Positions 2,053 to 41,652 of a stretch of 64,000 bases of DNA are shown here, in pieces (positions within the stretch are counted from its first letter, which is position 1; each line of letters starts with the position of its first letter). The stretch covers positions 1 to 64,000 of the forward strand of contig JAGWMJ010000007.1 in NCBI GenBank assembly GCA_028871815.1, in the 5' to 3' direction. The notes beneath the pieces are model-generated. The model did no database searches, was not told where the DNA came from, and was given only the letters and a program-made list of their open reading frames with translations. The position numbers and the translations under genes are program-made. This DNA is from Armatimonadota bacterium. Its GTDB lineage: Bacteria; Armatimonadota; Chthonomonadetes; Chthonomonadales; Chthonomonadaceae.

Positions 2053-2349
2053 CCGAGCCTGGGACGGTTGTCATCACGCCCTAGAACCGGCCCCCGCCAC
2101 ACGGCGCCATACTCATGACGGAATGGCGCCGTTGGGGCCGACTGGTGGCCTGAGACGGAGCCGGACGGGCCTGACCGCGGCAGCGTGGGCCAATTCGGCG
2201 GCGGCTCCGTTAGAGCGTCCGAGCGTGATTCCCATGCGCGGAGTTGCAGGAGGTGGCGCAGAGACGGTTAGCGAAGGATCCGGAAGCGCGCGGAATCGGA
2301 ATTCAAGTGAGTGGCCGTTGAGAACGGTACGCGACTGACTGCAGCGCCA

Positions 2350-4824
2350 ATGACCCGAACGTGCCGAGCCTTAAGCGTCACCGCACTGGCCCTCGCGCTT
2401 GCCATGCCTTTCTCCGCTAGATGCACGGCGCGTCAAGCTGCGCCGGCGAGCGCGGCCAAAGCGCCGCAAGCGCCCGTGACCACCTGGCGAGTCCTCTGTA
2501 CCATCTACCCCAACGTCAATGCAACCGTAGTGGGACCCAATGGCCGCCTGCATCGTGTGGTCTCATCGTACTCCGAAGCGTGGATCCAGGCCGTGAAGTC
2601 GTACATCGTCGACTTCGAGCAGACAGTAGCCAGGGAATCGCTCGGGCGATGCCGTGTCGGTGTCGCCACCGTCGTTGTAGACCGGACGCTGTCACACTTC
2701 AGCGGTGGCCCGGCACGATACTTGCCGGCTGCGAGCGAAGTTGACCCGGAAACCGCAGCTTACAATACACCCCGGCAGTTTGACATGCGGGCCATCGTGT
2801 TCAACAGCGGTGACGGTACCAACAATTTGCCGGAAGACATTGGTGGTCTTGGGGGTGGTTCGGTCGGGGGCGGGACGTTGTGGACTCCGCTGTGGGCAAC
2901 GACGCCCAGTCGCGCCAACATGCTGCGCGTGGTCGGCGTTCTGGTACATGAGTGGATACACTGCCTGGACGGCTATGTATTTGGCCTGAACGCCTACCGG
3001 ATCGAAGGCGAACATGCCACCGGGCGCGCTATCTGGTATCCGGGCGGCACGTGGTGGCGCGATGCCGGCAGCCAACCGGTTGGTGATTGGTGGGGCCAGC
3101 TACTTGGCCGCCGATACACGGATGGCACGCTGTATTGGGGATACAGCGAAGCAGTGTTTGCATCGGGAACAACGCTCCGGCGCGCAAGTCCCCTGCCTGT
3201 GCAGCTCCTCGGTCCGTTCAACAACACCGTATGGGATAAGCCACCGAAGCTAGTTTGGGCGCGCGTGCCGGCAACGAGCTTTGCGCTGGAAATCTACAAA
3301 TCTGGGGCGCCGGATCGGTCCGTCTATTCGCGCGCTGTGCCGGCTGCGCCGTTTACGCGGCCAGACGCCACAAGCGGCGCCGGCCTGGTTTACGAGGACC
3401 TCAAGACTCTTGGCGCCATCTCGTACCAACTGCCGGAACACGCCCTGACACCCGGCTCTTACACTTGGCACGTGTACGCGGTGAACGCTGGCCACCGATC
3501 CGTCGACGGAGACGAGCTCGGCTTTACCATTGCTCCAAAGCTCGATCCGCCTACCGTGAAGGTTGCCCGGCTCGAGGCGGCGCCGCCCGGCAGCGATCCC
3601 GAACCTATCTCCGTGCCGGCGAGTGAGCCGGATCCCGCAATCGCACTCAGAACTCCACAATCGTGCACGGTCGGCGCGGAGGGCGCGGCAATCCGTCTCT
3701 GCTCCATAGTCACCACACAAAACCAGATAAAGCGCGCATGGGCCGAGGTAACCGACCCGGGCGGTGGCGTAACCGTTGTGAACCAGCACCGGCACACCCC
3801 GGAGCCGGAGGAGACGCTGTGGGTGGGCCCCTATGCCGTTCCGGCAAACCGCTCCAATGAAGACGAGTACTACGGTGTGCAATTCTGGGCAGAGGACCTG
3901 ACGGGAAAAGTAACAAGTTCCAGCACAACCTCTTTTCGCGTGGCTCCGAAGCCGGCTGACGCCCAGGGGGCGGGCCTTTCTGCAACCTACTTCAACAGCA
4001 GGAATGGCACAGACCCTGTCCTGCAGCGCGTGGACGGACCACTCGATTTCTTCTGGTCCGGCAGTCCGGCGCCCGGCCTGGGTTCGGAGAACTACAGTGT
4101 TCTGTGGCAGGGATATCTGATGCCGCCGTACACCGGGCACTATGTTTTCTCGGTACACGTCGATGACTGCGTCCGGCTATTCGTTGGCGGCATGCTCATT
4201 CTCAACCATTGGATTGCCCAGCCGCCGTACGACTTCCAAACGTCGGCGGATCTGGTTGGCGGCAAACTGACGCCGATCCGGATTGAGTACTTTAACGCTC
4301 AAGGCGTGGGCGCCTTCACCCTCCGGTGGAGCAGCGACAACGTTCCGGAAGCGATCGTTCCCGCAGCCAACCTGTATGAAACCCGCAGTGGCTCGCAGCT
4401 CGAAGTTCAACCATCGCCACTCGCGCTGGAGCCCCGGCAGCCGGACGGCGTGCTGCCCGCGCACGGCGGTCGTCTTCTGCTGGGCGCCGTAATCAATCCT
4501 CGGAAGGACCTCGATCACGCGTGGGCACAGGTTACAGACTGGCGCGGAAAGCAGTCGCGCGTCAGTCTGGTCGATCGACAGTGGCTGGGCTATCCGGACG
4601 ACGGTGCGAACCTTGCGCTAACCGGAGAATACCAGGTACCTGCAGCGGATAGCGCTCGATCCAAACGCGAACTGCAGATTGTGTACGTTGCACGTGACAC
4701 GCAGGGCCGACGCGTTCAGTCGGAGCCGCAGCGCTACCTGATTCCCTATCCGCCTCCCGGAGCCGGGCAGGCGCCGCTCCGCGCCCCGGCCTTTCACACG
4801 AACGCCCCGCAGCTGCCGCCGTAG
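2350..4824 (+). CDS. Secreted HEXXH metallopeptidase-like protein with PA14 domain
   Basis: The 824-residue product starts with a Sec-type signal (basic MTRTCR, then a hydrophobic core to about residue 25). I prefer the ATG at 2350 to the GTG at 2311 because it puts the signal at the N terminus. Residues 200-204 read HEWIH, an HEXXH zinc-protease motif, inside a 'VLVHEWIHCLDG' helix; I could not identify the third zinc ligand. Fibronectin/Ig-like stretches follow at about 290-380 and 400-535, then a well-formed PA14 domain at about 542-677, a carbohydrate-binding or adhesive module. A further beta domain closes the protein. It probably acts outside the cell on a glycoconjugate or protein, but the substrate is unknown. 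Confidence 0.7.
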   Translation: MTRTCRALSVTALALALAMPFSARCTARQAAPASAAKAPQAPVTTWRVLCTIYPNVNATVVGPNGRLHRVVSSYSEAWIQAVKSYIVDFEQTVARESLGRCRVGVATVVVDRTLSHFSGGPARYLPAASEVDPETAAYNTPRQFDMRAIVFNSGDGTNNLPEDIGGLGGGSVGGGTLWTPLWATTPSRANMLRVVGVLVHEWIHCLDGYVFGLNAYRIEGEHATGRAIWYPGGTWWRDAGSQPVGDWWGQLLGRRYTDGTLYWGYSEAVFASGTTLRRASPLPVQLLGPFNNTVWDKPPKLVWARVPATSFALEIYKSGAPDRSVYSRAVPAAPFTRPDATSGAGLVYEDLKTLGAISYQLPEHALTPGSYTWHVYAVNAGHRSVDGDELGFTIAPKLDPPTVKVARLEAAPPGSDPEPISVPASEPDPAIALRTPQSCTVGAEGAAIRLCSIVTTQNQIKRAWAEVTDPGGGVTVVNQHRHTPEPEETLWVGPYAVPANRSNEDEYYGVQFWAEDLTGKVTSSSTTSFRVAPKPADAQGAGLSATYFNSRNGTDPVLQRVDGPLDFFWSGSPAPGLGSENYSVLWQGYLMPPYTGHYVFSVHVDDCVRLFVGGMLILNHWIAQPPYDFQTSADLVGGKLTPIRIEYFNAQGVGAFTLRWSSDNVPEAIVPAANLYETRSGSQLEVQPSPLALEPRQPDGVLPAHGGRLLLGAVINPRKDLDHAWAQVTDWRGKQSRVSLVDRQWLGYPDDGANLALTGEYQVPAADSARSKRELQIVYVARDTQGRRVQSEPQRYLIPYPPPGAGQAPLRAPAFHTNAPQLPP

Positions 4825-5047: not shown

Positions 5048-5686
5048 ATGGTGCCTGATCTGCAGCAGCTGTTCGATGCCGTACTGGAGGGCAACGCGCC
5101 GGCCGCCAAGTCCGGTGTCCAGGACGCCCTGGCAGCGGGTATGAAGCCTCAGTATTTGCTGGATGAGTGCCTGATCCCCGCGATGGACGAGGTTGGGCGA
5201 AGGTTTGAGGCAAACGAATACTTCGTGCCGGAACTGTTGATCGCGGCACGGGCCATGAAGGGCGGCCTTGAAATCCTCCGGCCTCTGCTGGCGGAGAGTG
5301 GCGGCAAGCGTGCCGGCAAAGTTGTAATCGGCACCGTACGCGGCGATCTCCATGATATCGGCAAGAACCTGGTTGGAGCCATGCTGGAAGGCGGCGGCTT
5401 TGAGGTTATCGACCTCGGTGTGGATGTATCGCCGGAGCAGTTCGCCACAGCTGTGCGCGATAACGGCGCCGAACTGGTTGCTATTTCCGCGCTGCTTACC
5501 ACCACGATGTCGGGCATGAAGTCGGTGATCGAAACGCTCGACAAGCATGGCATGCGCCCAGGCGTGCGCGTCATGGTTGGCGGCGCTCCCGTAACGCAGC
5601 GCTTTGCCGATGAGATCGGAGCCGACGCTTTCAGCGACAACGCGAGCGGCGCCGTTCGGGTCGCTCGTGGGCTCCTCGCAGCCTGA
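5048..5686 (+). CDS. Corrinoid (methyltransferase-associated) protein
   Basis: This 212-residue protein matches the MtaC/MtbC-type corrinoid carriers. An N-terminal four-helix cap (about 1-85, with 'LIPAMDEVGRRFEANEYFVPELLIAARAM') precedes a Rossmann-like B12-binding domain. The cobalt-ligating DxHxxG motif is intact as D100-L-H102-D-I-G105, and the later GGAP loop is present. The protein carries the methyl group on cobalamin between a substrate methyltransferase and an acceptor methyltransferase. A strong Shine-Dalgarno (GGAAGGAGGG, 5031-5040) sits just before the ATG. It is the first gene of an operon whose other members are all of methyl-transfer type. Confidence 0.93.
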   Translation: MVPDLQQLFDAVLEGNAPAAKSGVQDALAAGMKPQYLLDECLIPAMDEVGRRFEANEYFVPELLIAARAMKGGLEILRPLLAESGGKRAGKVVIGTVRGDLHDIGKNLVGAMLEGGGFEVIDLGVDVSPEQFATAVRDNGAELVAISALLTTTMSGMKSVIETLDKHGMRPGVRVMVGGAPVTQRFADEIGADAFSDNASGAVRVARGLLAA

Positions 5687-5973
5687 TGATGTCACGTCGG
5701 CTGCAGAGAACCGGCTCACGGGTTGCGCCACCGAAGAGCTTCGGAGACCAGCGCGCTGCCCGGCCGGCACGCTCCATGCCGCGCCAACAGATGCACTTCG
5801 GCTCGCAGCCGCTATGGCGGCGCGCGCGGGGGCCGGGCTTTTGCATCACCGGCGTCGTCCCGCTCACCGACCACCCGCCGGATAGTGTCCTGGAGCAGGC
5901 GATTGGCGCCGACCCCCCGATTGGGCCACACACGTTCGGCGCTGCAGGTTTCCATCGCGGGCAACGGATGTGA
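5686..5973 (+). CDS. Doubtful small ORF linking two operon genes
   Basis: A 95-residue frame begins at the base where the corrinoid gene stops and ends in a GTGA overlap with the next gene's GTG start. This is the layout of a translationally coupled gene. The predicted protein is Arg/Pro-rich, has no recognisable domain, and resembles non-coding GC-rich sequence. Third-position GC is high, but so is that of its surroundings. It may simply be a 283-base spacer. I list it because the junctions are suggestive, not because the protein is convincing. Confidence 0.2.
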   Translation: MMSRRLQRTGSRVAPPKSFGDQRAARPARSMPRQQMHFGSQPLWRRARGPGFCITGVVPLTDHPPDSVLEQAIGADPPIGPHTFGAAGFHRGQRM

Positions 5974-6866
5974 ACGCAATGTGGGATGAGTTGATGGCCG
6001 CCGTGCCGGTACTGACCGATGGTGCGTGGGGCACGCAGATGCAGGCGCGCGGTCTGCCAATCGGCGCGTCTCCCGAAGCCTGGAACGTGTCAAAGCCGGA
6101 TGCCGTTTTCGCCGTTGCGCAGGCGTATGTGGATGCCGGCAGCCGCGTCATACTCACGAACACGTTCGGCGCGAACTCGATCGCGCTCCGCCGTCATGGC
6201 CTGCAGGATCGTGCTGCTGAGATCGCGTTTACCGGGGCCGCGCTCTCGCGTCAGGCGGCGAACGGTAGGGCTCATGTGTTCGCATCGATCGGCCCAACCG
6301 GGCTGGTGCTGGCGATGGAAGAAGAGCCTCCCGAAGTCATCAAGGCCTCGTTCGTCCAGCAGGCTCGCAACCTGGCGGACGGCGGCGCAGATGCGCTGGT
6401 GATTGAAACGATGAGCGAACTGGCAGAGGCGCGCCTCGCCGTTGCAGCCGCCAACGAAACGGGCCTTCCTGTTGTGGTGAGCATGACGTACGGCGCAGGC
6501 CGGGCCGGAGATCGAACGCCCATGGGCGTTACGCCGGAAGAAGCGGCTGCCGAGCTCGAGGCTGCAGGCGCCGATGCAATCGGCGCAAACTGCGGGGACG
6601 GCGCCGAACAACTTATCGCGGTAACCACCCGCTTGCGTGCGGCAACGCGGCTGCCGCTGTGGATCAAACCGAACGCCGGTCTGCCGGTTCTGGAGAATGG
6701 CAGAGCGGTTTACAGGACTTCTCCGGATGATTTCGCCGCCCATTGCTGCCGCCTGGTGGATGCCGGCGCCGGCTTTATCGGTGGCTGCTGCGGCACCGCA
6801 CCGGCGTTCATCGCCGCGCTGCATGATGCGCTTGCCGAGCGCGGGACAGCGAGTGACGACACTTAG
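5970..6866 (+). CDS. Homocysteine S-methyltransferase family protein
   Basis: The 298-residue product is a complete BHMT/MetH-N-type TIM barrel. It opens with 'VLTDGAWGTQMQARGLP' and carries the zinc-thiolate ligands expected of the family: C208 in 'GANCGDG' and the pair C273-C274 in 'GGCCGT'. Members transfer a methyl group to homocysteine, giving methionine. Beside a corrinoid protein the likely donor is methyl-cobalamin on that protein, as in the N-terminal half of MetH. The enzyme lacks the MetH folate, B12 and activation domains, which here appear as separate genes or are absent. Start is the GTG at 5970; an ATG nine bases on is equally usable. Confidence 0.88.
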   Translation: MNAMWDELMAAVPVLTDGAWGTQMQARGLPIGASPEAWNVSKPDAVFAVAQAYVDAGSRVILTNTFGANSIALRRHGLQDRAAEIAFTGAALSRQAANGRAHVFASIGPTGLVLAMEEEPPEVIKASFVQQARNLADGGADALVIETMSELAEARLAVAAANETGLPVVVSMTYGAGRAGDRTPMGVTPEEAAAELEAAGADAIGANCGDGAEQLIAVTTRLRAATRLPLWIKPNAGLPVLENGRAVYRTSPDDFAAHCCRLVDAGAGFIGGCCGTAPAFIAALHDALAERGTASDDT

Positions 6867-6886
6867 CCTTTGATCGGAGGTGAGCG

Positions 6887-8056
6887 ATGAATGCGCGTGA
6901 ACGGTTTAACGCAACGATGCACTACCAACCGCGAGACCGCTCGCCCATCATGGACTTTGGTTTTTGGGATGAGACGACCACGGTTTGGCAGCAGGAGGGC
7001 TTGCCGAAAGGCGTTGATCCGGATGATTTCTTCGGCATGGATCCGCAGTGGATTGTCGCGCCGATCAATGTCCACCTCTCTCCGGGCTTTGACCACCGCG
7101 TGGTGGAAGACCAGGGCGACACCGAGATTGTTCGCGACAATGAGGGCGTCACCAAGGAGCAAGGCAAATTCCTGGGCTCGATCCCGAGGCACCTGGACCA
7201 CGTACTCAAGGGGCGCGGCTCATGGAAGCGCGAATTCCTATGGCGGTTGGATGGCTTCGATCCGGCGCGCTATCCCTACAAATGGGAGGCGCTGGCAGCC
7301 CGGTACAAGAGTCCGGAACGTGACTATCCGCTGGGCATCAACGCCGGCTCACTATACGGGTGGATCCGGAACTGGATGGGCCTTGAGGCGGTAAGCCTGC
7401 TGGTCTACGATGATGCCGTCCTATTCGCGGAAATCGTGGAAGCGATCGCAGATTGCGTTATCACCACGATTACGCCGGCTCTCGAATCCGGCATTCAGTT
7501 TGAATACGCCCTGATGTGGGAGGACATGTGCTACCGCGCGGGCCCGCTGCTGTCGCCGCGCGTCTTCAAGCAGGTGCTCGTGCCACAGTACGCCCGGATC
7601 ACCGCGCTGCTCCGGCGGTTTGGGGTGGATGTTGTGATAATTGATTGCGACGGAGATATTCGACAGCTCGTGCCGCTGTGGTTGGATGCCGGCGTCAACA
7701 CCATGTTTCCCGTGGAGGTCGGCACGTGGGGCGCCGACGTTGTGGCCTACCGCAAGGAGTACGGCAGGGATCTCCTGATGATTGGCGGCGTCAGCAAGCG
7801 CCTGCTGGCCGGTCCGCAGGATGGCATCTCACGCGAGGTCGAGCGACTGACCCCGCTGGTGGAAGAGGGAGGCTTTATACCGACACCCGACCACCGTGTG
7901 CCGCCCGATGTGCCGTTTGCCAACTATATGTTCTACCTCGCAGAGGCGCGCCGCTGCTGGGGCAGATGCATGCCGAACCTTCGCCCGATGAACCACCCCA
8001 CCGCCAGCGCTCACCCAGCGGATGCAGTCCGGTATGCGTGGCACCTTGGCCAGTAG
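6887..8056 (+). CDS. URO-D family protein, putative methyltransferase (copy 1)
   Basis: The 389-residue protein is of the uroporphyrinogen decarboxylase/MtaA superfamily ('RERFNATMHYQPRDRSPIMDFGFWDE' start). It sits in a methyl-transfer operon and not with heme genes. At the usual zinc region it has 'IDCDGD' and near the C terminus 'TPDHRVPPDV'. This is not the H-x-C...C thiolate set of MtaA, so it is more likely a substrate-side methyltransferase or demethylase component than the thiol methylase. The ribosome-binding site is near-perfect (GGAGGTGA, 6876-6883). The substrate is unknown. Confidence 0.8.
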   Translation: MNARERFNATMHYQPRDRSPIMDFGFWDETTTVWQQEGLPKGVDPDDFFGMDPQWIVAPINVHLSPGFDHRVVEDQGDTEIVRDNEGVTKEQGKFLGSIPRHLDHVLKGRGSWKREFLWRLDGFDPARYPYKWEALAARYKSPERDYPLGINAGSLYGWIRNWMGLEAVSLLVYDDAVLFAEIVEAIADCVITTITPALESGIQFEYALMWEDMCYRAGPLLSPRVFKQVLVPQYARITALLRRFGVDVVIIDCDGDIRQLVPLWLDAGVNTMFPVEVGTWGADVVAYRKEYGRDLLMIGGVSKRLLAGPQDGISREVERLTPLVEEGGFIPTPDHRVPPDVPFANYMFYLAEARRCWGRCMPNLRPMNHPTASAHPADAVRYAWHLGQ

Positions 8057-8087
8057 TCGCGATCTGCATCCCGCCCGTCACGGCGCC

Positions 8088-8897
8088 ATGAACCTCAAGC
8101 TGATATCCTGCGAAGTCTTCTGCCGAGAGGCAGAGCACGTCATCACGCAGTCACCACACCATATCGAGGTCACGTTCCTGCCGATGGGGCTGCATGACAT
8201 CGGCGCCCGCGGCATGCGTCCGAAGATCCAGGCCGCGGTGGACGCCGTCGACGACCGGCAGTTTGACGCGATCCTTCTCGGATTTGGACTGTGCAGCAAC
8301 GGACTCGCGGGCATTGTCGCCAACGGCATACCGCTGGTGCTTCCTCGCGCGCATGACTGCATCACCCTCTTTCTGGGCAGTTCCCGACGGTATCTCGACT
8401 ACTTTCATGCGCATCCCGGCGTCTACTTCAAAACGACAGGCTGGATAGAGCACAGTAGCGATCTTGACTCGACGGCGCAACTCTCTCTGCAGCGCAGCCA
8501 GGCTCGCGGGGCGGCGTTGGCTGATCTGATTGCGCGCTATGGCGAAGACAACGGTCGTTACCTTCACCAAACGCTCAGCGCCGGTTCCGAACAGTACGGC
8601 CAGATCACCTTCATCGAGATGGGAGTTGAGCCGAACGCGGCCTGCGAGCAGCATTCGCGAGACGAAGCCCGTGCGCGTGGATGGCAGTTTGAGAAGGTCC
8701 GTGGCGATATTGGCATGATACAGAGGCTTGTGAGCGGCGACTGGCGCCCGGAGGAGTTTCTGGTGGTTCAGCCGGGATCCACGATCGCCGCGCGGTATGA
8801 CGAGAGTATCGTGGCTGCCGAACCCGCTCCCGAAAGCCGCCATACAGACGGCGGAGGGCCACCCGAGCCATCCGCAAGTGGCGCACCGAAAGGTTGA
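8088..8897 (+). CDS. DUF1638 family protein
   Basis: The 269-residue product begins 'MNLKLISCEVFCREAEHV' and contains 'DAILLGFGLCSNGLAGI' and 'PRAHDCITLFLGS', which are hallmarks of the DUF1638 family. That family has no firmly established biochemical role. It recurs beside corrinoid proteins and URO-D-like methyltransferases, as here, where it lies between two such genes with 31- and 6-base gaps. Conserved Cys residues (CEVFC, LCSNG, HDC) would suit metal or thiol chemistry, but that is inference. I placed the start at 8088, where the conserved family N terminus begins. Confidence 0.8.
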   Translation: MNLKLISCEVFCREAEHVITQSPHHIEVTFLPMGLHDIGARGMRPKIQAAVDAVDDRQFDAILLGFGLCSNGLAGIVANGIPLVLPRAHDCITLFLGSSRRYLDYFHAHPGVYFKTTGWIEHSSDLDSTAQLSLQRSQARGAALADLIARYGEDNGRYLHQTLSAGSEQYGQITFIEMGVEPNAACEQHSRDEARARGWQFEKVRGDIGMIQRLVSGDWRPEEFLVVQPGSTIAARYDESIVAAEPAPESRHTDGGGPPEPSASGAPKG

Positions 8898-8903
8898 CAC
8901 GGC

Positions 8904-9992
8904 ATGAAACACAACAGTCTGACATCACGGGAACGCGTCAATCTGGCGCTTTCGCATCAAGTGCCCGATCGCATTCCGCGCGCCGAGTCGTTCTGGCCCG
9001 AGACCATACCGCTCTGGCACTCGCAGGGCCTGGACGTTGGCACCGACCTTGCGACACTCTTTGACTACGATATCCGCGGCGCCGGTTGGGTGCACCACGA
9101 TGCGCGACCGGGATATGTGCGAATCGTGGATGAAACGCCGGACTGGTCGATCCGTGAGGATGGAAACGGCGCTATCCTGCGATACTGGCGCCACAAGAGC
9201 GGCACTCCGGAGCACATCGGCTTTACCGTGACCTCGGCAGATTCGTGGACGGCACTCAAACGGGATCTGCTTGCGATACCGGTTGAGATGCGGGTGGATG
9301 CCTACGGCGCGCTGGCCACGATGCACCGGGCACATGCGGAGGGGCGCTGGTTCTGCTGGCAGGGCGTTGAGTGCTTTGAGATTGCCAAGGACATCGTCGG
9401 CCATGAAGTGCTATGCATGGCGATGGCGGACGAGCCGGACTGGGTTGTTGATCTTTTTGAGACGCACACACGCCTGGCCACCGAAGCCCTTGACTACCTG
9501 GAGCGATGCGGCATACGATTCGATGGCGCCTGGATCTTCGGTGATATCGCCTACAACCATGCGCCGTTCTGCTCGCCCCGTATGTATCGATCGCTGGTAA
9601 TGCCCTCGCACGCCCGCCTCGCCGGCTGGTTCAAATCACGCGGGCTGCCTGTCATCTACCACACCGATGGCGACCTGAGGCAGCTCATTCCTTCTTTCCT
9701 CGAAGCCGGCGTCGATTGTCTGCAGCCGCTGGAAGCCAAAGCAAACGTGGATGTGCGGGCGTTGAAGAAGGAGTACGGGGATCGGGCCGCGTTCATGGGC
9801 AACATCGACATCATGGTTTTGATTACCAACGATCGGTCTCAGATTGAGGCGGAGGTTGCCGGCAAGGTACCAGCCGCTATGAAGAACGGAGGATACATCT
9901 ACCACAGTGACCATTCGATACCTCCCGGCGTCACGTGGGAGACGTATCAATACCTGATGGAGTTGATCGATGCATACGGCGCCTACCACTAG
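8904..9992 (+). CDS. URO-D family protein, putative methyltransferase (copy 2)
   Basis: The 362-residue protein is a second member of the URO-D/MtaA superfamily. It starts 'LTSRERVNLALSHQVPDRIPRAESFWPE', resembling copy 1. Its metal-site region reads 'IYHTDGDLRQLIP', and the C-terminal loop reads 'YHSDHSIPPGVTWE'. The HTDGD plus SDHSIPP pair occurs in URO-D-like proteins of methyl-transfer clusters and replaces the Cys ligands of MtaA. The gene is six bases after the DUF1638 stop. I infer a substrate:corrinoid methyltransferase or an accessory role; the substrate cannot be read from sequence. Confidence 0.8.
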   Translation: MKHNSLTSRERVNLALSHQVPDRIPRAESFWPETIPLWHSQGLDVGTDLATLFDYDIRGAGWVHHDARPGYVRIVDETPDWSIREDGNGAILRYWRHKSGTPEHIGFTVTSADSWTALKRDLLAIPVEMRVDAYGALATMHRAHAEGRWFCWQGVECFEIAKDIVGHEVLCMAMADEPDWVVDLFETHTRLATEALDYLERCGIRFDGAWIFGDIAYNHAPFCSPRMYRSLVMPSHARLAGWFKSRGLPVIYHTDGDLRQLIPSFLEAGVDCLQPLEAKANVDVRALKKEYGDRAAFMGNIDIMVLITNDRSQIEAEVAGKVPAAMKNGGYIYHSDHSIPPGVTWETYQYLMELIDAYGAYH

Positions 9993-10037
9993 CATCCCAG
10001 CAGTGCGGCACTCTGCGAGCGGGACGGCTGGGCGGGC

Positions 10038-11060
10038 GTGAACAGCCGTGAGCGTGTGCTGGCACACCTGGACGGTCGGCCGGTGGACCACCTGCCTTTT
10101 ATGGCGATCACCATGCAGTTTGCAGCCAGGCGGCTTGGCGTTTCTTACCGCGACTATGCCACCAACTATCGTCACCTGGTAGCAGGGCAAATCCAGGTGG
10201 CCGAAGCGTTTGGACTGGACCACGTCAACACGATGAGCGACCCGGTTTGCGAAGCTGCGGACTGCGGTGCAAAGACCGTGTCGCCGGACGACTCACCGGC
10301 ATGCATCGATGCCGCGCATCCGCTGCTTGCCGACAAGGGCAGCCTGGCGCGTCTGAACGTTCCGAGCCCCTACGCCGGCCGGATGATGAACCGATTGAGT
10401 GCGTTGAGCCTCTATCGCGAGCGCGTCGCCGGCGCCAAGCTCATCGAGGGCTGGATTGAGGGACCATGCGCCGAGGGTGCGGCGCTGCGCGGATTGAGCC
10501 AACTCATGCTGGACTTCTACGACGACCCTCCGTTTGTAGCCGACCTGTTCGAATTCGCGGTGCAGATGGAGCTCTCATTCGCCGCCGCGCAGGTGCAAGC
10601 CGGCGCGGAGTGCATCGGTATCGGCGATGCTGCGGCATCCCTGATAGGTCCGCAGCGATACGAAGAGTTTGTGTGGCCGTACGAAAAGCGGATGGTGGAT
10701 GGAGTGCGCAGCCTCGGCGCTCGCGTCCGGCTGCACATCTGCGGCAACACCCGGCCGATCCTGGGCCGGATCGCCGCGCTGGGCTGCGATATTGTCGACA
10801 TCGACTACCCGGTGCCGATGGAGGAGGCGCGCAGTCAACTTGGACCTGACCAGGTGCTTGCCGGCAACCTGGACCCGGTGCGGCTGGTGCAGAACGGAAC
10901 GCCGAACGAGGTAGAGGCCGCGGTGGGCAAATGCCATGCGGCTGCCGGCGACCGCTACATCGTTTGCGCCGGCTGTGAGGTTCCGCGGGATACTCCCCCC
11001 GAGAACCTCGCCGCGATGCGGCATTACGCCGGCATGCATCAACCGGCCAACCCGAACTGA
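10038..11060 (+). CDS. MtaA/MtbA-type cobalamin:thiol methyltransferase-like protein
   Basis: The 340-residue protein belongs to the same superfamily as copies 1 and 2 but keeps the MtaA-type zinc-ligand pattern: H-x-C in 'RLHICGNTRP' and a downstream Cys in 'IVCAGCEVPRDTPPENL'. In methanogens such enzymes move the methyl group from the corrinoid protein to a thiol (coenzyme M). In bacteria the acceptor would differ and is unknown; homocysteine or another thiol is plausible. The start is the GTG at 10038. It is followed after 12 bases by the activator gene, consistent with one transcript. Confidence 0.85.
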   Translation: MNSRERVLAHLDGRPVDHLPFMAITMQFAARRLGVSYRDYATNYRHLVAGQIQVAEAFGLDHVNTMSDPVCEAADCGAKTVSPDDSPACIDAAHPLLADKGSLARLNVPSPYAGRMMNRLSALSLYRERVAGAKLIEGWIEGPCAEGAALRGLSQLMLDFYDDPPFVADLFEFAVQMELSFAAAQVQAGAECIGIGDAAASLIGPQRYEEFVWPYEKRMVDGVRSLGARVRLHICGNTRPILGRIAALGCDIVDIDYPVPMEEARSQLGPDQVLAGNLDPVRLVQNGTPNEVEAAVGKCHAAAGDRYIVCAGCEVPRDTPPENLAAMRHYAGMHQPANPN

Positions 11061-11072
11061 CGAAGCAAGCCA

Positions 11073-12626
11073 ATGCCCCAGATCACGTTAAGCCCAACGG
11101 CCACACGCTTGAATGCCGCGCAAGGTCAGCCGCTGCGAGACATCCTGTTTGAACATGGCGTTGAGTTTCCGTGCGGCGGCCAGGGCCGCTGCCGTGGATG
11201 CCGCGTTCGCATCCGCAGCGGCAGTGGCACACCGAATGGTGTGGAGCTTGACCGGCTGACGCCACAGGAACTGGCCGACGGGTGGCGCCTGGCATGCCAG
11301 TGCCGGGTCGAAACCGATATGGAGGTAGAGCTGCGGCAGTGGGACGCCGCGGTACTGACCGACGATACCGCCTTCCGGTTTACCGCGCAGGAAGGCGCCG
11401 GCATCGCAATTGACCTCGGCACCACCACACTGGTGGCGCAGCTGCTCGACCTGGAAACCGGGCGGGTGCTCGCCGTACGTACGGCGTTGAACCAGCAAGC
11501 TCGTTACGGCGCCGACATAATGAGCCGAATTCAATTTGCCATGTCGGATGGTGGCCAGCTCCTGCTCGAGTCGGCGATTCGTGGCCAGTTGGGCGGACTG
11601 GTACGCCAGCTTTGCCAGGCAGCCGGAGTTGAACTCGGGCGGCTGCGCCGCATCACGCTGGTGGGCAATACGGTGATGCATCACCTGTTTTGCGGCATAT
11701 CGGTAGAGCCGCTCTCCATGGTTCCTTTCGAGGCGCAGCACGCCGGCCTTCAGACTATCTGCGCAGCCGCCCTGGACTGGTGTCTGGCTGAGTGCGCCGT
11801 GGTGCAGTTTCTTCCGTGCCTCGGCGGTTTTGTAGGCAGTGACCTGCTCGCCGGGATACTCGCCACGCAGCTTCATACCAGGCGGGAGCCCTCGGTGCTG
11901 ATTGACCTCGGCACGAACGGCGAGATCCTGGTGGGAAATCGCGACAGAATCCTGTGCACGTCAACCGCAGCGGGTCCGGCGTTTGAAGGGGCGCGCATCG
12001 CCATGGGAATGCGCGCGGCGTCAGGGGCGATCTGGAAGGTCGGTGTGGACGGTGGCGTGATGACCTGTGAAGTCCTTGGCGACGGTGAACCGCGAGGCCT
12101 GTGCGGCAGTGGTCTCGTGGACGCGGCGGCAGCCGGCCTGGATATCGGCGTGATCAACCCATCGGGCCGGCTGGATGGCGGGCGTGACATCGCACTGGCC
12201 GGCCCGGTGTCACTGACGCAGGCGGATATCCGCCAACTGCAGATGGCCAAAGGTGCAATAGCCGCCGGACTGCGCATCCTGCTGCGAATGTTCGGCGCCG
12301 AAACAGCGCAAATCGAGCACGTCTTCCTTGCCGGGGCATTTGGCAACTACGTTGATCGCGCCAGCGCACGGCGGATCGGTCTGCTGAACTTCCCACTGGA
12401 TGTCATCGAGCCGGTCGGCAACACGGCGCTGTTGGGCGCCAAAGTTGCGCTGTGCAGCGGCAGCGATTCTGATGCGAGCTATCCGGATATCTGCCGCCTG
12501 GCGGAGCATGTGCCGCTGCACGCCGCTGTCGACTTTCAAGAGACCTTCGTGGATCAGATGGGCTTCCCGACGCAAAGCTGCCCAGAACCGATCGCGGTTG
12601 GAGCTGCCGCGGGCCATTCAGGCTGA
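11073..12626 (+). CDS. RACo-type ASKHA reductive activator of corrinoid protein
   Basis: The 517-residue protein begins with a plant-type [2Fe-2S] ferredoxin domain, with ligands C34, C40, C43 and C75 ('FPCGGQGRCRGCRV', 'RLACQC'). An ASKHA/actin-like ATPase region follows ('IAIDLGTTTLVAQLLDLETG', 'VLIDLGTNGEILVG', 'VFLAGAFGNYVD'). This is the architecture of RACo, which uses ATP to re-reduce cobalamin that has slipped to the inactive Co(II) state. Its presence shows that the upstream corrinoid protein carries a Co(I) methyl-transfer cycle. The last 9 bases overlap the end of the convergent SPFH gene. Confidence 0.93.
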   Translation: MPQITLSPTATRLNAAQGQPLRDILFEHGVEFPCGGQGRCRGCRVRIRSGSGTPNGVELDRLTPQELADGWRLACQCRVETDMEVELRQWDAAVLTDDTAFRFTAQEGAGIAIDLGTTTLVAQLLDLETGRVLAVRTALNQQARYGADIMSRIQFAMSDGGQLLLESAIRGQLGGLVRQLCQAAGVELGRLRRITLVGNTVMHHLFCGISVEPLSMVPFEAQHAGLQTICAAALDWCLAECAVVQFLPCLGGFVGSDLLAGILATQLHTRREPSVLIDLGTNGEILVGNRDRILCTSTAAGPAFEGARIAMGMRAASGAIWKVGVDGGVMTCEVLGDGEPRGLCGSGLVDAAAAGLDIGVINPSGRLDGGRDIALAGPVSLTQADIRQLQMAKGAIAAGLRILLRMFGAETAQIEHVFLAGAFGNYVDRASARRIGLLNFPLDVIEPVGNTALLGAKVALCSGSDSDASYPDICRLAEHVPLHAAVDFQETFVDQMGFPTQSCPEPIAVGAAAGHSG

Positions 12627-13544
12627 TTCCGGCCCGGGAGTTCCTTCTTCGGCAGTTGCAGCGGCGCCGGCGCTCTGTGCGCCAACGCCGAGTGACAGGG
12701 CGGCCATGCCTGCGAGACCGCCGAGCTGCATGGAATCGACTGCCGAGCTCGGCACTATCACAATGGTCGCGTTCTGTTTCAGACCCTCATACAGCATGTT
12801 CATAGCGCGCAGGTGGAAGGCAATGGGGTTCTGGGCGTAGGTCTTGGATGCTTCGCCGAAGTTCTCGGCAACCTGCCGCTCCGAATCGCCGAGTATCACG
12901 CGCGCCTGGCGCTCCCTCTCCGCCTGGGCTTGCATCGACATGGCGCTTTCCAGCGCAGGCGGTATCAGCACGTCCTTCACCTCGACGGCAATCACCTGGA
13001 TGCCCCATGGCTCCGTGCGCGCATCGATGATGGTCTGAAGGTGAGCGCTGATGGTTTCGCGCCCCTCGAGCATCTCGGCCAGCATCGTCTTACCGATCAC
13101 GTCGCGGAGAGCCGTCTGGCAGGCCCATCGGATAGCGGTCTGGTAGTCGGCGACATCCAGCGCGGCGCGCTTGGGATCCACGACCTTCCAGAAAAGGACC
13201 GCATTGACATCCACCGGAACCGTGTCCTTCGTCAGCGTTTTTTCGGCGGTAAAAGACATCGTGATGACGCGGATATCGATCCAGTATGCGATCTGATCCA
13301 ACACAGGCAGTATGAAGAAGATGCCCGGGCCGCGCAGCGCCTGAAACTTGCCCAGGCGTAATACCACGGCGCGCGCCCACTGGTTGGCAACCTTGACGGA
13401 GACACTGATCAGCGCTGCCGCAACCACCGTCAAAGCCACGACAGGCGAGCCCGCTCCCGTGAACCCCAGACTGTTGGCAAGCGGCAGGCCCACGATCAGA
13501 ATGATAACAAAAAGCGCCGCCGGCAGAGTGTTGCTCTGTTTCAT
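12618..13544 (-). CDS. SPFH/band-7 (slipin-like) membrane protein
   Basis: The 308-residue product has two N-terminal membrane segments (about 8-28 and 35-52), then a band-7 domain: 'LRLGKFQALRGPGIFFILPVLDQIAYWIDIR', 'AEKTLTKDTVPVDVNAVLFWKV' and 'VIAVEVKDVLIPPAL'. An Ala/Glu-rich coiled-coil ('MQAQAERERQARVILGDSERQ') and a C-terminal Gly/Ala tail follow. Slipins organise membrane microdomains and often work with an NfeD protease partner, which is absent from this window. The ATG at 13544 has a good GGAGGG site seven bases upstream, so I prefer it to the GTG at 13559. It follows the glucan phosphorylase gene by 34 bases. Confidence 0.88.
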   Translation of the reverse strand: MKQSNTLPAALFVIILIVGLPLANSLGFTGAGSPVVALTVVAAALISVSVKVANQWARAVVLRLGKFQALRGPGIFFILPVLDQIAYWIDIRVITMSFTAEKTLTKDTVPVDVNAVLFWKVVDPKRAALDVADYQTAIRWACQTALRDVIGKTMLAEMLEGRETISAHLQTIIDARTEPWGIQVIAVEVKDVLIPPALESAMSMQAQAERERQARVILGDSERQVAENFGEASKTYAQNPIAFHLRAMNMLYEGLKQNATIVIVPSSAVDSMQLGGLAGMAALSLGVGAQSAGAAATAEEGTPGPESA

Positions 13545-13578
13545 CGGTTTGCCCTCCACCCCTCATAACACAGTTGGC

Positions 13579-16089
13579 TCAATGCTCCCATAGTATGCAT
13601 GGATTCTCAAGGGGTATTGCGGCGCCATCGCAAACCGGAAGCGCCCGCACGGTGTAGTCGGCGGACGGCCTCTCGGCAGCGACATCGGCGCAGTATACGG
13701 CGAGAGTGCCGGAGGGCTGTGAACCGGGAGTCATGGGTATGCGCTCCGGCCGGCCTCCGGGTACGGCATCGGCATACAACTCCAATCGGATCTCATCCGC
13801 GCGCAGTCTGCCGAAATCGACGGTGAGCTCAAAGTGATGCCGGCCGTCGTAAGTACGTTGGTCGAGGTGGCTGAACTTGAGGCTCTGCCAGTCATGCAGC
13901 GTGCGCCGCTGCCATGAGGCGATGCCGTGCGCGGCGCGGCATCCGTCGGCCGTACGTTCTTTAAAGGCAGCAGCGGCCGGAATATAGTAGCTCTCGGTAT
14001 ACTCGCGCACGCTGCGACTCGCGGCAAACCTCGGCGTGAGGCTGGCCATACTCGCTCTCATCCGCTGCACCCAGCGGCGTGGTATGCCCGACGCGTCACG
14101 ATCGTAGAATTCCGGGATCACCTCTCGCTCCAGGAGGCTGTAGAGTTCCTCCGCCTCCAGCGCGTCCCACTCCGCATCGCCTCCATGCTCGGCTCCATCG
14201 CCCAACGCCCAGCCCACCGATGGATCATACGCTTCCGCCCACCAGCCGTCGAGTTCCGAAACGTTGATTCCGCCATTTACAAGCGTCTTCATTCCGCTGG
14301 TGCCGCAAGCTTCCCAGGGACGGCGTGGCGTATTGATCCAAACGTCTACGCCCTGAACCAACTGCTCCGTCAGCAGCATGTCGTAGTCGGCCAGGAAGGC
14401 GGCATGATCGCGCACCCCCGCCTGGCGCAGGAAGCCGACCCAGTCCTGGATCATGGCCTGGCCCTCATAATCCTGCGGATGCGCCTTCCCTGCGATCAAC
14501 AGCTGAGCGGGACGCTGCGGATCGCAGAGCAAGCGGCGAAGCCGCTCCCTGTCGTGCAGCAGCATATTCGGCCGCTTGTACTCGGCGAACCTCCTCGCAA
14601 AGCCAAGCGTCAGCACATCGGCGTTGAAAAGTCTGCGGGCGGCGTCCACTTCGTCCGCCCCGGCGCCCGACGCCGCACGGTCGCGTGCCACGCGTTCACG
14701 CACATTGGCGACCAGAGCAGTACTTGCATCCGTTCGGTACCGCCAGAGCCTCTCATCCGACACCTGACCGATGTCGTGCGGCAAGGAGGAAGGATCGCCG
14801 CGCCACCGTTCTTTGGTACACGCCTCGGTCCAGAGCGCGTCGGCTTCCGCAGAGTCCCAACTCGCCATGTGCACACCATTCGTGACGTGCCCCACGGGTA
14901 CCTCCGCCCTCGGCCATCTGGGAAACAGTGGCTGAAAAATCGCTCGGCTCGCCTCACCGTGGAGCCGGCTGACGCCGTTCACGGCGCCACACCCGCGCAG
15001 CGCGAGCCACGCCATATTGAAGTACTCCGAGCCATCGCTCCCACCGCTCCGCCCCAGCGCCAGGAGTTGCTCGGCATCGATTCCCAACCACTTGTTCGCG
15101 TAGTCACCGAGGTATCGGCACACCATCTCCGGAGCAAACCGATCGAACGCGGCGTCGAGCGCCGTGTGCGTTGTAAACAGGTTACCAGGACGTGCCGCGG
15201 TGAATGCCACGTGAAATGGCTGGTTGCTATCCGCCATCAGACCGCGCGTCCGTTCCAGAACCGCAAAGGCGGCATGTCCCTCATTCAGGTGGCACACCTC
15301 CGGTGCAATCCCGATTTCGCGCAGCAGTCGCCAGCCGCCGATACCCAGAGCGAGCTCCTGCTGCAGTCGCAACTCGGACCCTCCGCCATAGAGTTGCGAT
15401 GTTATATCTCGTTGGGCAGGATAGTTCGCCGGATCATTGCTGTCCAGCAGAAAGAGCCGAACGCGGCCGACCTGCACCTCCCACGTCCGAAGGGTCAACG
15501 GGCGACCCGGCATTTCCAACTGGATGCGTATCCACTCGCCGTCCTGGTTTCGAACCGGCGTGACGGGCAGCTGCCCGGGTTCCAGGTAGGGCCAGACGGC
15601 ATCCTGCCCGCCATCTGGACCGATCACCTGGCGGAAGTAGCCTTGCTGGTAGAGGAGCCCGACTGCCACCAGCGGCACTCCAAGGTCACTCGCCGCCTTC
15701 AGGTGGTCTCCGGCGACGTTGCCCAGGCCGCCGCAATACAGCGGAAGCGCTTCGCTAAGCATGTACTCCATGCTGAAGTAGGCAGCGGCGGTCAACTCCG
15801 CTTCGGGGTGCTGCTGCTGGAACCATACCGGCGTCGCCATCGCCGCCCGGCGCTGCCGCAACAGCCCGTCAACTTCGCTGCGGAAATCCACGTCCTGCCA
15901 GAGTTCGTCGCAGCGCCGCGGTGATACCGTCTGCAATACCGCCCATGGATTCCGTGTGAACTCCCAAAGCTCCGGGTCCAGCCGGCACCACACACGGTCG
16001 GAAGCGTGATTCCACGACCAACGCATATCAAGCGCCAGGTCGCGCAGCGCCATCCATGCGCTGTTCTCGGTGCTTTCACGCGCTGCCAT
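13579..16089 (-). CDS. glgP: Alpha-glucan phosphorylase (GT35)
   Basis: The 836-residue enzyme has the family's order of motifs: 'PLYCGGLGNVAGDHLKAASDLG', 'VCHLNEGHAAFAVLER', 'GKAHPQDYEGQAMIQDW' and the pyridoxal-phosphate site 'EACGTSGMKTLVNGGINVSELDGWW', where K of GMK binds the cofactor. It releases glucose-1-phosphate from glycogen or maltodextrin. The N-terminal DUF3417 region ('MALRDLALDMRWSWNHASDRVW') identifies the bacterial/archaeal MalP-like form. I start at the ATG at 16089, which has TGGAGGT ten bases upstream; the open frame extends further but without family similarity. Confidence 0.93.
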   Translation of the reverse strand: MAARESTENSAWMALRDLALDMRWSWNHASDRVWCRLDPELWEFTRNPWAVLQTVSPRRCDELWQDVDFRSEVDGLLRQRRAAMATPVWFQQQHPEAELTAAAYFSMEYMLSEALPLYCGGLGNVAGDHLKAASDLGVPLVAVGLLYQQGYFRQVIGPDGGQDAVWPYLEPGQLPVTPVRNQDGEWIRIQLEMPGRPLTLRTWEVQVGRVRLFLLDSNDPANYPAQRDITSQLYGGGSELRLQQELALGIGGWRLLREIGIAPEVCHLNEGHAAFAVLERTRGLMADSNQPFHVAFTAARPGNLFTTHTALDAAFDRFAPEMVCRYLGDYANKWLGIDAEQLLALGRSGGSDGSEYFNMAWLALRGCGAVNGVSRLHGEASRAIFQPLFPRWPRAEVPVGHVTNGVHMASWDSAEADALWTEACTKERWRGDPSSLPHDIGQVSDERLWRYRTDASTALVANVRERVARDRAASGAGADEVDAARRLFNADVLTLGFARRFAEYKRPNMLLHDRERLRRLLCDPQRPAQLLIAGKAHPQDYEGQAMIQDWVGFLRQAGVRDHAAFLADYDMLLTEQLVQGVDVWINTPRRPWEACGTSGMKTLVNGGINVSELDGWWAEAYDPSVGWALGDGAEHGGDAEWDALEAEELYSLLEREVIPEFYDRDASGIPRRWVQRMRASMASLTPRFAASRSVREYTESYYIPAAAAFKERTADGCRAAHGIASWQRRTLHDWQSLKFSHLDQRTYDGRHHFELTVDFGRLRADEIRLELYADAVPGGRPERIPMTPGSQPSGTLAVYCADVAAERPSADYTVRALPVCDGAAIPLENPCILWEH

Positions 16090-16344
16090 AGCTGCATGAC
16101 CTCCAAAACACCACGATGGTTGGCCACCCCAATGTGCCAGAATGGCGTTCCGTTTTTCAATACGCCCGGCGATGCGCAAACGATACATCGCAGGAGAAGC
16201 GACCGCAGTGAATCGAGTGCGCTGCGACATCGGTTCGCTGCGCCGTCAATTGGGCATCGATCAGCAGCCGCGCAGGTCGCCCGGCGCCACTTGAATAGGC
16301 CGGCGATAGCCGCGCATCACTCCAGAATTCATCCCGCCGGACTG

Positions 16345-25344: not shown

Positions 25345-26093
25345 TGCACGGAGCCGCGCGTGAATGGCGACAGCCGACATGGGCGGCTTCGGCATGGGCC
25401 GTCTTTCGCAAAGACGTGAGGTCGGAGCTTCGCTCGCGCGTGGCGCTCAGCGCGATGGGGGTTTTCTGCCTCTCAGCCCTGTTCCTCATCGCCCTGGCAA
25501 CCGCTCCCCTGCAGAGCGTGTACCTTTCGTCGGCTGACGGCAGCGCTGCACGCAGCGCATGGTCGCCCGAGAGCCGATTTGGCCTGATGTGGGTCCTGCT
25601 GTGCTTCGCCGCGTTCGTTGGGCTGGGTCACTCCTTTGTATCGGAGGAGGATGCCGGGACCGCTACACCCCTGCGCATGGCCTGCACCGCAGAGGCCGTT
25701 TATGCCGGCAAGCTCGCGGTAAACGCGGCGATCATGGCCGGCGCCGCACTGCTCGTAATACCCTCCTACTGTCTTGTATGCGGCCTTGGAGTTGGCGACC
25801 CCATACGGTTCACGCTTGCCGCTGGAACGGGATGTGCCGGGCTCGCGGCCTCCGCGACGATTGTCGGCGCACTGGCGGCGCGCGCCCGGGGAGCCACCGG
25901 GCTCTTCAGCGCGCTTGGCTTGCCGCTTGCGGTAGTGTTTTTGATGCTGCTGCAGAACTGCGCTGCCGCCATCTATGCCGATCTACCACTGATTCAGGCA
26001 GTGAGGGCTATCGGGGGACTGGTAAGCTATGTAGTGCTTCTGGTCGCAGTTTCGGCGCTGGTATTTCGATATGTTTGGGAGGACGCCCTGTGA
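25344..26093 (+). CDS. ccmB: Heme exporter permease CcmB
   Basis: The 249-residue protein has about six hydrophobic helices. The N terminus 'AVFRKDVRSELRSRVALSAMGVFCLSALFLIAL' and the 'SFVSEEDAGTATPLRMA' loop are typical of CcmB. It is the membrane partner of CcmA. The ATG at 25344 is set by the one-base overlap with ccmA; the upstream open frame lies inside ccmA and is spurious. The end overlaps the ccmC GTG by four bases (GTGA). Confidence 0.92.
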   Translation: MHGAAREWRQPTWAASAWAVFRKDVRSELRSRVALSAMGVFCLSALFLIALATAPLQSVYLSSADGSAARSAWSPESRFGLMWVLLCFAAFVGLGHSFVSEEDAGTATPLRMACTAEAVYAGKLAVNAAIMAGAALLVIPSYCLVCGLGVGDPIRFTLAAGTGCAGLAASATIVGALAARARGATGLFSALGLPLAVVFLMLLQNCAAAIYADLPLIQAVRAIGGLVSYVVLLVAVSALVFRYVWEDAL

Positions 26094-26797
26094 CGAATCG
26101 AGAAAGCGACATACAGCGCCACGCTCCAATCCCGGGACTCTGGTGGAAGCTCCTCGTTGGCCTGCTGATGGCCTGGGTCATCTACGGCTCATTCTATGTA
26201 GCGCACGGCGCCGTCAACTTTGGATTCGGCGGGAATCCTGCCCGTATCGTTTTCTTTCACGTGCCTGTTGCTGTTCTATCGTACGTGGCCTATGCCGTTG
26301 CCGCGGTTTACGGCATTCTCCATCTGGCCGGGCGCAATGCGCAAGCTTCCGACATGAAGGCCGGCGCCTCGATGGAGTTGGGACTCATCTTCTGCATTCT
26401 GGCAACCATCACGGGGAGCATCTTCGCCGGAATACAATGGGGACGGTTCTGGAATTGGGATCCGCGTGAAACGTCGATCGTGGTGATGCTGCTCCTGTAC
26501 GGCGCCTACATCGCCCTGCGGTTAAGCCTGGCGGATCGCCCGGATCAGCGCGGGCGTTTCTGTGCCGTCTACACCCTGGTGGCGCTGGTGCCCGCCACAT
26601 TCCTCATCTGGATTGTGCCGCGCATTCCAAGCCTTCAGAGCCTGCATCCAACCAACGTTCTGTTCAATCCCGACAATACCAGCGCGAGCTACAAAGAGGT
26701 CCTCTATCCATCGTTCGCCGCGTTCATCATGCTGTATGTCTGGCTCCTGCAGCTGCGATGCCGCATTCAAACCGTACTATTGCGGAGGGAGCAATGA
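26090..26797 (+). CDS. ccmC: Heme lyase/handling protein CcmC
   Basis: The 235-residue, six-helix protein contains the tryptophan-rich WWD motif 'GIQWGRFWNWDPRETSIVVMLLLYGAYIAL', flanked by the expected external histidines ('FFHVPVAVLSY' and 'SLHPTNVLF'). CcmC presents heme to CcmE. The start is the GTG at 26090, overlapping the ccmB stop. The last bases overlap the ccmD ATG. Confidence 0.94.
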   Translation: MTNRESDIQRHAPIPGLWWKLLVGLLMAWVIYGSFYVAHGAVNFGFGGNPARIVFFHVPVAVLSYVAYAVAAVYGILHLAGRNAQASDMKAGASMELGLIFCILATITGSIFAGIQWGRFWNWDPRETSIVVMLLLYGAYIALRLSLADRPDQRGRFCAVYTLVALVPATFLIWIVPRIPSLQSLHPTNVLFNPDNTSASYKEVLYPSFAAFIMLYVWLLQLRCRIQTVLLRREQ

Positions 26798-26931
26798 ATT
26801 CCGGAACCGTTCGACTGCTGGTTATGGGGGTACCGCTCATCATCTGGGCGGGTATATTCATCTACGTTATTGTTTTGGATCGGGCCGTTGCGCGCCTTGA
26901 GCGCGGGGCGGGAAGTGAGGAAGATGACTGA
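26794..26931 (+). CDS. ccmD: CcmD-like small membrane protein
   Basis: A 45-residue frame sits between ccmC and ccmE with ATGA and TGATG overlaps on its two sides. It has one hydrophobic helix ('LLVMGVPLIIWAGIFIYVIVL') followed by a charged tail (DRAVARLERGAGSEEDD), the expected topology of CcmD, which holds CcmE near CcmABC. Sequence identity in this family is always low, so the call rests on size, topology and position. Confidence 0.85.
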   Translation: MNSGTVRLLVMGVPLIIWAGIFIYVIVLDRAVARLERGAGSEEDD

Positions 26932-27383
26932 TGGGCAACTCGTTGCATCCCCGAGCACTGGGGCCGCGTCGAATTGGTATTGTGATTGCCGCTCTGTTGA
27001 TCACCGCGGCGCTTGGTTTGACCTTCTGGGCTTTTGCCAGCGCCATGACGCCGTATGTAGATATTCAGCAGGCCGAACGGCTGGGATCCAGTTGCCAGGT
27101 TCGGGGCAAGATTCTGCACAACACCGTAGTTTACGATACGGTCGCAAACGTTCTCCGCTTTCGCCTGCAGGATGAGCATAACCAGCAGATTGAAGTGGTC
27201 TACCACGGGGCCAAGCCCGAGTCATTCGATACGGCTCCGGAAACGGCCGTGGAGGGCTATGTAGTTCGCGCGCCGAACGGCACGGTGTCGCTACAATCCG
27301 ACACGATGACGATCAAATGCCCCAGCAAGTATAGCGATAACAAAAACCCGTACCATCAGAGCAAGCCCGGCGGCTCCACCTGA
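26931..27383 (+). CDS. ccmE: Heme chaperone CcmE, cysteine (CxxxY) type
   Basis: The 150-residue protein has one N-terminal membrane helix (about 15-38) and an OB-fold ('SCQVRGKILHNTVVYDTVANVLRFRLQDEHNQQIEVVYHG', 'VEGYVVRAPNGTVSLQSDTMTIKCPSKY'). At the heme-attachment position it has C130-P-S-K-Y134, not the classical His (HxxxY). CxxxY CcmE proteins define a variant System I described in archaea and some sulfate reducers, usually without CcmH. The tail is short and polar. TGATG overlaps couple it to ccmD and ccmF. Confidence 0.93.
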   Translation: MGNSLHPRALGPRRIGIVIAALLITAALGLTFWAFASAMTPYVDIQQAERLGSSCQVRGKILHNTVVYDTVANVLRFRLQDEHNQQIEVVYHGAKPESFDTAPETAVEGYVVRAPNGTVSLQSDTMTIKCPSKYSDNKNPYHQSKPGGST

Positions 27384-41559: not shown

Positions 41560-41571
41560 ATAACACACGCG

Positions 41572-41644: not shown

Positions 41645-41652
41645 CGGCCTGC

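Follow-up and report, generated by a model that had tools for sequence, protein, structure and literature searches.

A seven-gene corrinoid methyl-transfer operon with three UroD-superfamily proteins in a Chthonomonadaceae genome, a candidate accessory route to methionine

We analyzed a 64,000-nucleotide stretch of DNA (the window: positions 1 to 64,000 of contig JAGWMJ010000007.1, assembly GCA_028871815.1) from a bacterium whose named close relatives belong to Chthonomonadaceae/Armatimonadota, and within it an operon at 5048-12626 that encodes the parts of a corrinoid methyl-transfer system. Seven intact, co-oriented open reading frames (ORFs) lie on the + strand in the order corrinoid carrier, homocysteine S-methyltransferase (HMT), URO1, DUF1638 protein, URO2, URO3 and RACo-type activator, with intergenic gaps of 283, 20, 31, 6, 45 and 12 bp, respectively. 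An earlier model-generated account made from the letters alone (the sequence-only reading) had described this gene set, and the Pfam domains bear it out for all seven genes. The features of the operon are as follows.

5048..5686, + strand: corrinoid carrier, MtgC/MtbC-like, 212 aa; methyl carrier (Pfam PF02607, B12-binding_2, plus PF02310, B12-binding)
5687..5969, no strand: carrier-HMT gap, 283 bp; relatives hold mtaB and extra URO-D genes there
5970..6866, + strand: HMT, 298 aa; methyl acceptor enzyme (PF02574, S-methyl_trans, 1.5e-62)
6887..8056, + strand: URO1, divergent UroD-superfamily protein, 389 aa; predicted donor:corrinoid methyltransferase (PF01208, 42.8 bits)
8088..8897, + strand: DUF1638 protein, 269 aa; partner of corrinoid reactivation (PF07796, 101 bits, 8e-29)
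8904..9992, + strand: URO2, UroD-superfamily protein, 362 aa; predicted second donor methyltransferase (PF01208, 68 bits)
10038..11060, + strand: URO3, MtaA/CmuA-like methyltransferase, 340 aa (PF01208, 199 bits)
11073..12626, + strand: RACo-type corrinoid reductive activator, 517 aa (PF14574 plus PF17651 plus Fer2)

The residues expected of each component are in place. The carrier holds the DxHxxG motif, as had been claimed, in the form DLHDIG at residue 100, and scores 209 bits against the MtgC model NF047996 (cut-off, 370 bits). The Zn-binding cysteines of HMT, C208 (in NC) and C273 and C274 (in GGCC), are invariant across 12 homologues, and the activator combines Fer2, RACo middle and RACo C-terminal domains (Pfam) with the ferredoxin cysteines C34, C40, C43 and C75, scoring 315 bits, below the cut-off, against the AcsV model NF040756. 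The Pfam URO-D match covers the full length of URO3 (1.4e-58) and the C-terminal half only of URO1 (4.5e-11) and URO2 (9e-19). The DUF1638 gene most likely starts at 8088 rather than at the mechanical ORF start at 8022, judging from its reading MNLKLISCEVF there and from the MRxKLISCEV that begins four of five relatives inspected. A simple scan found no promoter upstream of the operon and no promoter- or terminator-like site in the 283-bp gap. Downstream, a convergent SPFH/Band-7 gene (12618-13559, - strand), whose 3' end shares 9 bp with the RACo gene, ends the unit.

The gene-neighbourhood survey that the sequence-only reading had proposed was run on twenty homologous regions and then on 80 loci encoding URO1 relatives, with some places present in both sets; as the 80 loci were chosen by URO1, its own count carries no weight. 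Of the 291 genomes from the phylum, 154 contain URO1 relatives; a scan of named genomes extended their range to Chloroflexota, Planctomycetota and Verrucomicrobiota, and the core gene set recurs across these four phyla. Near the URO1 relatives we found the carrier at 39 of the 80 loci, RACo at 27, HMT at 25, DUF1638 at 20, URO2 at 17 and URO3 at 8; because homologous core genes recur in this way, the operon arrangement is not a product of chance. Among the 291 genomes, and uncorrected for phylogeny, DUF1638 is present in 134 of the 154 with URO1-like genes as opposed to 2 of the 137 without. Of the 17 loci with both DUF1638 and RACo, 10 have the two genes directly side by side on one strand, which agrees with the genetic connection of DUF1638 to a RamA-like protein in Phaeobacter (PMC5764234).

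The non-core neighbours of the clusters (n = 129) included 28 further URO-D proteins, the only recurrent enzyme family among them, the next recurrent families including AraC-type regulators (4) and CobW (2). In some clusters UroD-like proteins number as many as about eight (L049, counted by hand), and first-look searches gave up to 77-79 URO1-like candidates per phylum genome (e.g., G007, G257 and G275), which suggests a strong expansion of URO-D paralogues in such genomes. Apart from URO-D, no recurrent transporter or catabolic family that might serve as a substrate clue was found near the clusters or the solo URO1 genes. Such solo homologues, with no carrier or activator nearby (L084, L093-L098, L101-L103 and others), occur mainly in Chloroflexota and Planctomycetota, and some adjoin sugar-type genes, namely one for an SBD_N/NBD_C protein (L101) and ADH and SDR genes (L103). 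Other sugar-related neighbours are scattered (an alpha-L-fucosidase-like protein at L048:17106-18575, identified by eye and unscanned, Gfo/Idh oxidoreductases, SDR/ADH proteins and a sugar-binding kinase-type protein) and are suggestive only as a hint to the substrate. Three planctomycete loci (L142, L143 and L146) share a stretch at ~4.5-9 kb with RACo, a PhyH dioxygenase and URO1 on the + strand.

MtaB, the methanol:corrinoid methyltransferase, is encoded at 15 of the 80 loci and lies directly beside the carrier at 14 of the 15. The L038 copy matches PF12176 with 522 bits, full-length copies in homologous loci have intact Zn-site motifs, and a compact operon in genome G052 (L153) reads carrier-MtaB-URO-HMT-DUF1638. 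The operon is therefore not an isolated oddity: relatives have this gene cluster with MtaB added next to the carrier, and this ties it to methanol and O-methyl use. It shares with the MtaABC methanol system this MtaB of its relatives and a protein, URO3, that resembles MtaA, and differs from it in having no MtaB of its own and in its predicted acceptor, which is homocysteine rather than coenzyme M or tetrahydrofolate (THF).

Within the family of the window's genome, the six other URO1-bearing genomes all encode MtaB as well, and MtaB and DUF1638 are both missing from the ten that lack URO1, so that this genome, with URO1 and DUF1638 present and MtaB absent, is the exception. On the URO1 tree the window falls inside a starred group of 14 rows in which 7 loci have MtaB, and the presence or absence of MtaB changes 10 times; MtaB was likely lost in the window's lineage, and the operon looks like a reduced form of the MtaB-bearing cluster. 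Its absence here, as set against the six family genomes that have it, together with the 283-bp gap at the corresponding site, would also be expected of an operon in decay, whose remaining genes lack a donor and are drifting. We consider decay very unlikely, since all seven frames are intact and keep the residues invariant among homologues, clusters survive without MtaB (it is missing from 11 of the 27 genomes that have clear URO1 orthologues), and tblastn searches of the gap gave only chance matches, with no remnant of MtaB or another inserted protein and no pseudogene.

The host genome (3.68 Mb in 22 contigs, 98% complete) narrows the choice of partners. MtaB and MttB are absent genome-wide (MtmB and MtbB were not searched for), as is MetE, sought through its C-terminal domain PF01717. 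Only two pterin-binding domains are present, one within MetH (contig C3) and one stand-alone (C1:675106-675846, 264.8 bits) that is likely FolP, and the genome has no stand-alone methyl-THF:corrinoid methyltransferase. PF02607 corrinoid modules likewise number two, in MetH and in the operon carrier; thus the sole non-MetH carrier of this type is the operon's own, and no MttB or MtaB with a dedicated corrinoid partner is encoded elsewhere. From this inventory the carrier is distinct from MetH, HMT is the only evident acceptor enzyme, and the URO-D proteins are the only evident donor side. Because there is no stand-alone methyl-THF:corrinoid methyltransferase, the methyl group is likely accepted by homocysteine, with one or two of the URO-D proteins as the likely donor component. 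Gene content and genome inventory together support the system that the sequence-only reading had proposed, running from donor through corrinoid to homocysteine with its own activator. Its statement that no classical donor gene is present holds for MtaB and MttB; naming MtvB among the missing was misleading, as MtvB, OdmB, VdmB, MtoB and CdmB, the last of which acts on chloromethane (PMC13222342), are themselves UroD-superfamily enzymes (PMC13222342; PMC10418091), so that URO-D proteins are just what an MtvB-type system would show. Compared with a three-component corrinoid demethylase, domains and motif identify a DxHxxG carrier and a RACo-type activator, while a donor enzyme of the MtaB/MttB family is lacking.

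Among the closest described parallels are the split methionine synthase of Phaeobacter inhibens, which comprises HMT, MtbC, a pterin subunit, DUF1638 and a RamA-like protein and in which methionine synthesis needs DUF1638 together with the RamA-like protein (PMC5764234), and the MtgC/MtgD system of Ruegeria (PMC12478193). Shared with these are a stand-alone carrier, a stand-alone PF02574 enzyme, DUF1638 and a RACo/RamA-like activator for methionine, as well as the notion of a single carrier that connects demethylation with methionine synthesis. By contrast, the present genome has no pterin subunit (PF00809) beyond MetH and the likely FolP, a full MetH coexists with the operon, and three URO-D proteins stand in place of a glycine betaine demethylase. 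The match of the carrier, HMT, DUF1638 and RamA-like parts raises the alternative that the operon is such a split MetH-like synthase, its carrier loaded from 5-methyl-THF by a pterin subunit encoded elsewhere and its URO-D proteins having side activities. With the MetH pterin domain as query, one cluster locus only gave a match, a pterin-binding methyltransferase-like stretch (L037:16526-17002, - strand, the same as L074:1308-1784, + strand) that is the only one detected among the cluster loci and that would be in keeping with this alternative; it suggests that in that genome the system may swap methyl groups with folate. As the host's two pterin domains leave no subunit to load the carrier, and as the recurrent neighbours are URO-D rather than pterin proteins (no folate methyltransferase was found among the 25 commonest neighbour families listed per batch), we judge a split synthase improbable. 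The MesA-MesD enzymes (PMC7857596) also make methionine without methyl-THF, with a corrinoid protein as the presumed methyl source of MesA-C; they are of the MetE type (PF01717), absent from the host, whereas the operon enzyme is of the MetH/BHMT type (PF02574).

The three URO-D proteins differ in their relation to known enzymes and in their metal sites. All three belong to the URO-D family (Pfam); the earlier description of them as MtaA-type holds for URO3 alone, which is 25.5% identical to Methanosarcina MtaA (4ay7), compared to ~14% for each of URO1 and URO2. URO3 scored 152 bits against TIGR01463 (cut-off, 235 bits) and 126 of 244 bits against NF004889, so that it has the His-x-Cys...Cys ligands of the soluble coenzyme M methyltransferase (SCMT) family of MtaA/MtbA at scores under the curated cut-offs; these ligands (H233, C235 and C313) are invariant in 7 homologues. 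URO1 has Asp-x-Asp and His (D253, D255 and H336, window numbering) where the MtaA type has His-x-Cys and Cys, and its motifs WEDM and DCDG are invariant in 21 homologues, alongside a conserved PDHR(V/I)PPDV stretch. The site of URO2 is His-x-Asp and His (H253, D255 and H337). Aligned, the signatures read His-Ile-Cys/Gly-Cys for URO3 (as in MtaA), His-Thr-Asp/Asp-His for URO2 and Asp-Cys-Asp/Asp-His for URO1, and further signatures among aligned relatives included HLCG/GNNL, HTCG/SDH, KHTDG/SNC, HLDG and HSDG/TH. Structure prediction had been proposed as well, and single-protein AlphaFold models of URO1 (pLDDT 89) and URO2 (pLDDT 86) show the UroD/MtaA fold, matching MtaA and UroD structures with a probability of 1.00. 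A sequence search of the PDB with URO1 gave nothing significant, and the fold search, in which MtaA 4ay7 was the best match, returned the general UroD/MtaA fold only. The motif E-x14-E-x20-H, reportedly found in some O-demethylases, is absent from URO1-3.

In this superfamily a His-Cys-Cys site is associated with S/Se methyltransferases and its replacement by carboxylate with O-methyltransferases (Kountz & Balskus, PMC10418091). URO1 and URO2, with their Asp/His-based sites, are therefore predicted to be O-demethylases and URO3 a thiol methyltransferase, an assignment that is a prediction only, because the rule derives from other superfamily branches and URO1 and URO2 are only ~14% identical to MtaA. 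With the UroD-type O-demethylases (OdmB, VdmB, MtvB and MtoB) the operon has in common a UroD-fold donor methyltransferase, a carrier and an ATP-dependent activator, here recognized from domains, and, in URO1 and URO2, carboxylate/His in place of His-Cys-Cys; the likeness is one of fold, gene content and metal site, and the operon differs in having no THF methyltransferase.

The thiol-type site of URO3, the sole MtaA-like member, opens a further alternative, in which the methyl group would come from a methyl-sulfur or methyl-selenium compound and URO3 would be the enzyme that takes it up, on the pattern of type 1 mlp clusters, with accessory roles for URO1 and URO2; Clostridium ljungdahlii Mlp2 has been shown to methylate selenide in vitro (PMC10418091). 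A type 1 mlp cluster needs at least two Mlps, in practice Mlp2 and Mlp3, that are each >25% identical to a characterised SCMT (PMC10418091), and its corrinoid protein, Ram and Mlps are co-directional and no more than 2 kb apart, with no THF methylase within 20 kb (Kountz & Balskus). The operon resembles such clusters in its carrier, Ram-type activator, several URO-D proteins and lack of a THF methylase, and its genes are co-directional, with no genomic pterin methyltransferase besides the likely FolP and MetH; that layout presupposes two Mlps, of which we found one, only URO3 exceeding 25% identity to the one SCMT compared (4ay7). It also includes HMT and DUF1638, and the host has a cytochrome oxidase, whereas type 1 clusters were described from obligate anaerobes. 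Since, moreover, URO3 occurs at only 8 of the 80 URO1-fetched loci compared to 17 for URO2, we regard a methyl-sulfur or methyl-selenium donor as unlikely. For want of a pterin subunit on the one hand and of a second Mlp on the other, the operon is assigned neither to the Phaeobacter split synthases nor to the type 1 mlp clusters.

We consider it fairly probable that the operon is an accessory, folate-independent route in which a methyl group passes from a donor to the carrier and on to homocysteine to give methionine, and we infer the direction of transfer, the donor and the contacts between partners as follows. RACo, aided by DUF1638, would reduce the carrier cobalt to Co(I); URO1 and/or URO2 would then load the carrier with a methyl group taken from a small methylated donor, by prediction an O-methyl compound, as MtaB does with the methyl group of methanol on the equivalent carrier of relatives, only URO-D proteins being left here; and HMT would transfer it from the methyl-Co(III) carrier to homocysteine, yielding methionine. 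URO3 could provide a third entry, for a donor of the methyl-thioether or methanethiol type, or serve an alternative thiol acceptor. Several observations weigh against this reading. About 35 of the 80 URO1 loci have no carrier, HMT and activator nearby, so that URO1 may in addition work with partners encoded elsewhere, or have another role; URO1 and URO2 have no characterised close relative; the local tree support for MtaB loss is weak; and neither the window nor any of eight homologous loci gave a methionine- or B12-type riboswitch at the gathering threshold. In addition, the genome encodes a full-length MetH, activation domain included, which already makes methionine, and the operon would for this reason be an accessory route that supplements MetH and does not replace it.

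Taken as a whole, the cluster looks like a hub in which several exchangeable donor enzymes share one carrier, one acceptor enzyme and one activator. It is a novel form of familiar machinery and not an entirely new kind, and we found no published description of the seven-gene set in a literature search that excluded most subscription journals. A wider proposal, which we offer tentatively, is that oxygen-respiring bacteria possess a general methyl-harvesting hub in which exchangeable UroD-type demethylases feed one B12 protein and, through it, homocysteine; equally tentative is the part of this proposal by which each enzyme has its own metal signature and donor, methanol entering via MtaB in some relatives and methyl ethers (such as methylated sugars or aromatics) via URO1 and URO2.

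Elsewhere in the window, cytochrome c assembly proteins (Cytochrom_C_asm, CcmF-like; 25559-30124, + strand) lie near the operon and fit respiration. A class II (vitamin B12-dependent) ribonucleotide reductase with a TSCPD domain (34411-37251, + strand) indicates that the organism probably uses B12 apart from the operon. Directly upstream of the operon is a gene for an 837-aa protein with PA14 and GLEYA domains (2311-4824, + strand), for which a carbohydrate-binding function is possible. The window also holds an alpha-glucan phosphorylase with DUF3417 (13579-16230, - strand) and three tRNA genes in a row (41485-41726, - strand).

If the hub proposal is true, URO1 and URO2 would be founding members of new demethylase families. 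If the operon is correctly read as a methionine route, several phyla known largely from uncultured genomes would be able to make methionine by MetH-type, folate-independent chemistry from environmental methyl compounds. This reading would also give a testable job to the large, unexplained URO-D paralogue sets of Armatimonadota, Planctomycetota, Chloroflexota and Verrucomicrobiota, and it makes two questions directly answerable, namely which substrates URO1 and URO2 demethylate and what role DUF1638 plays beside the activator.

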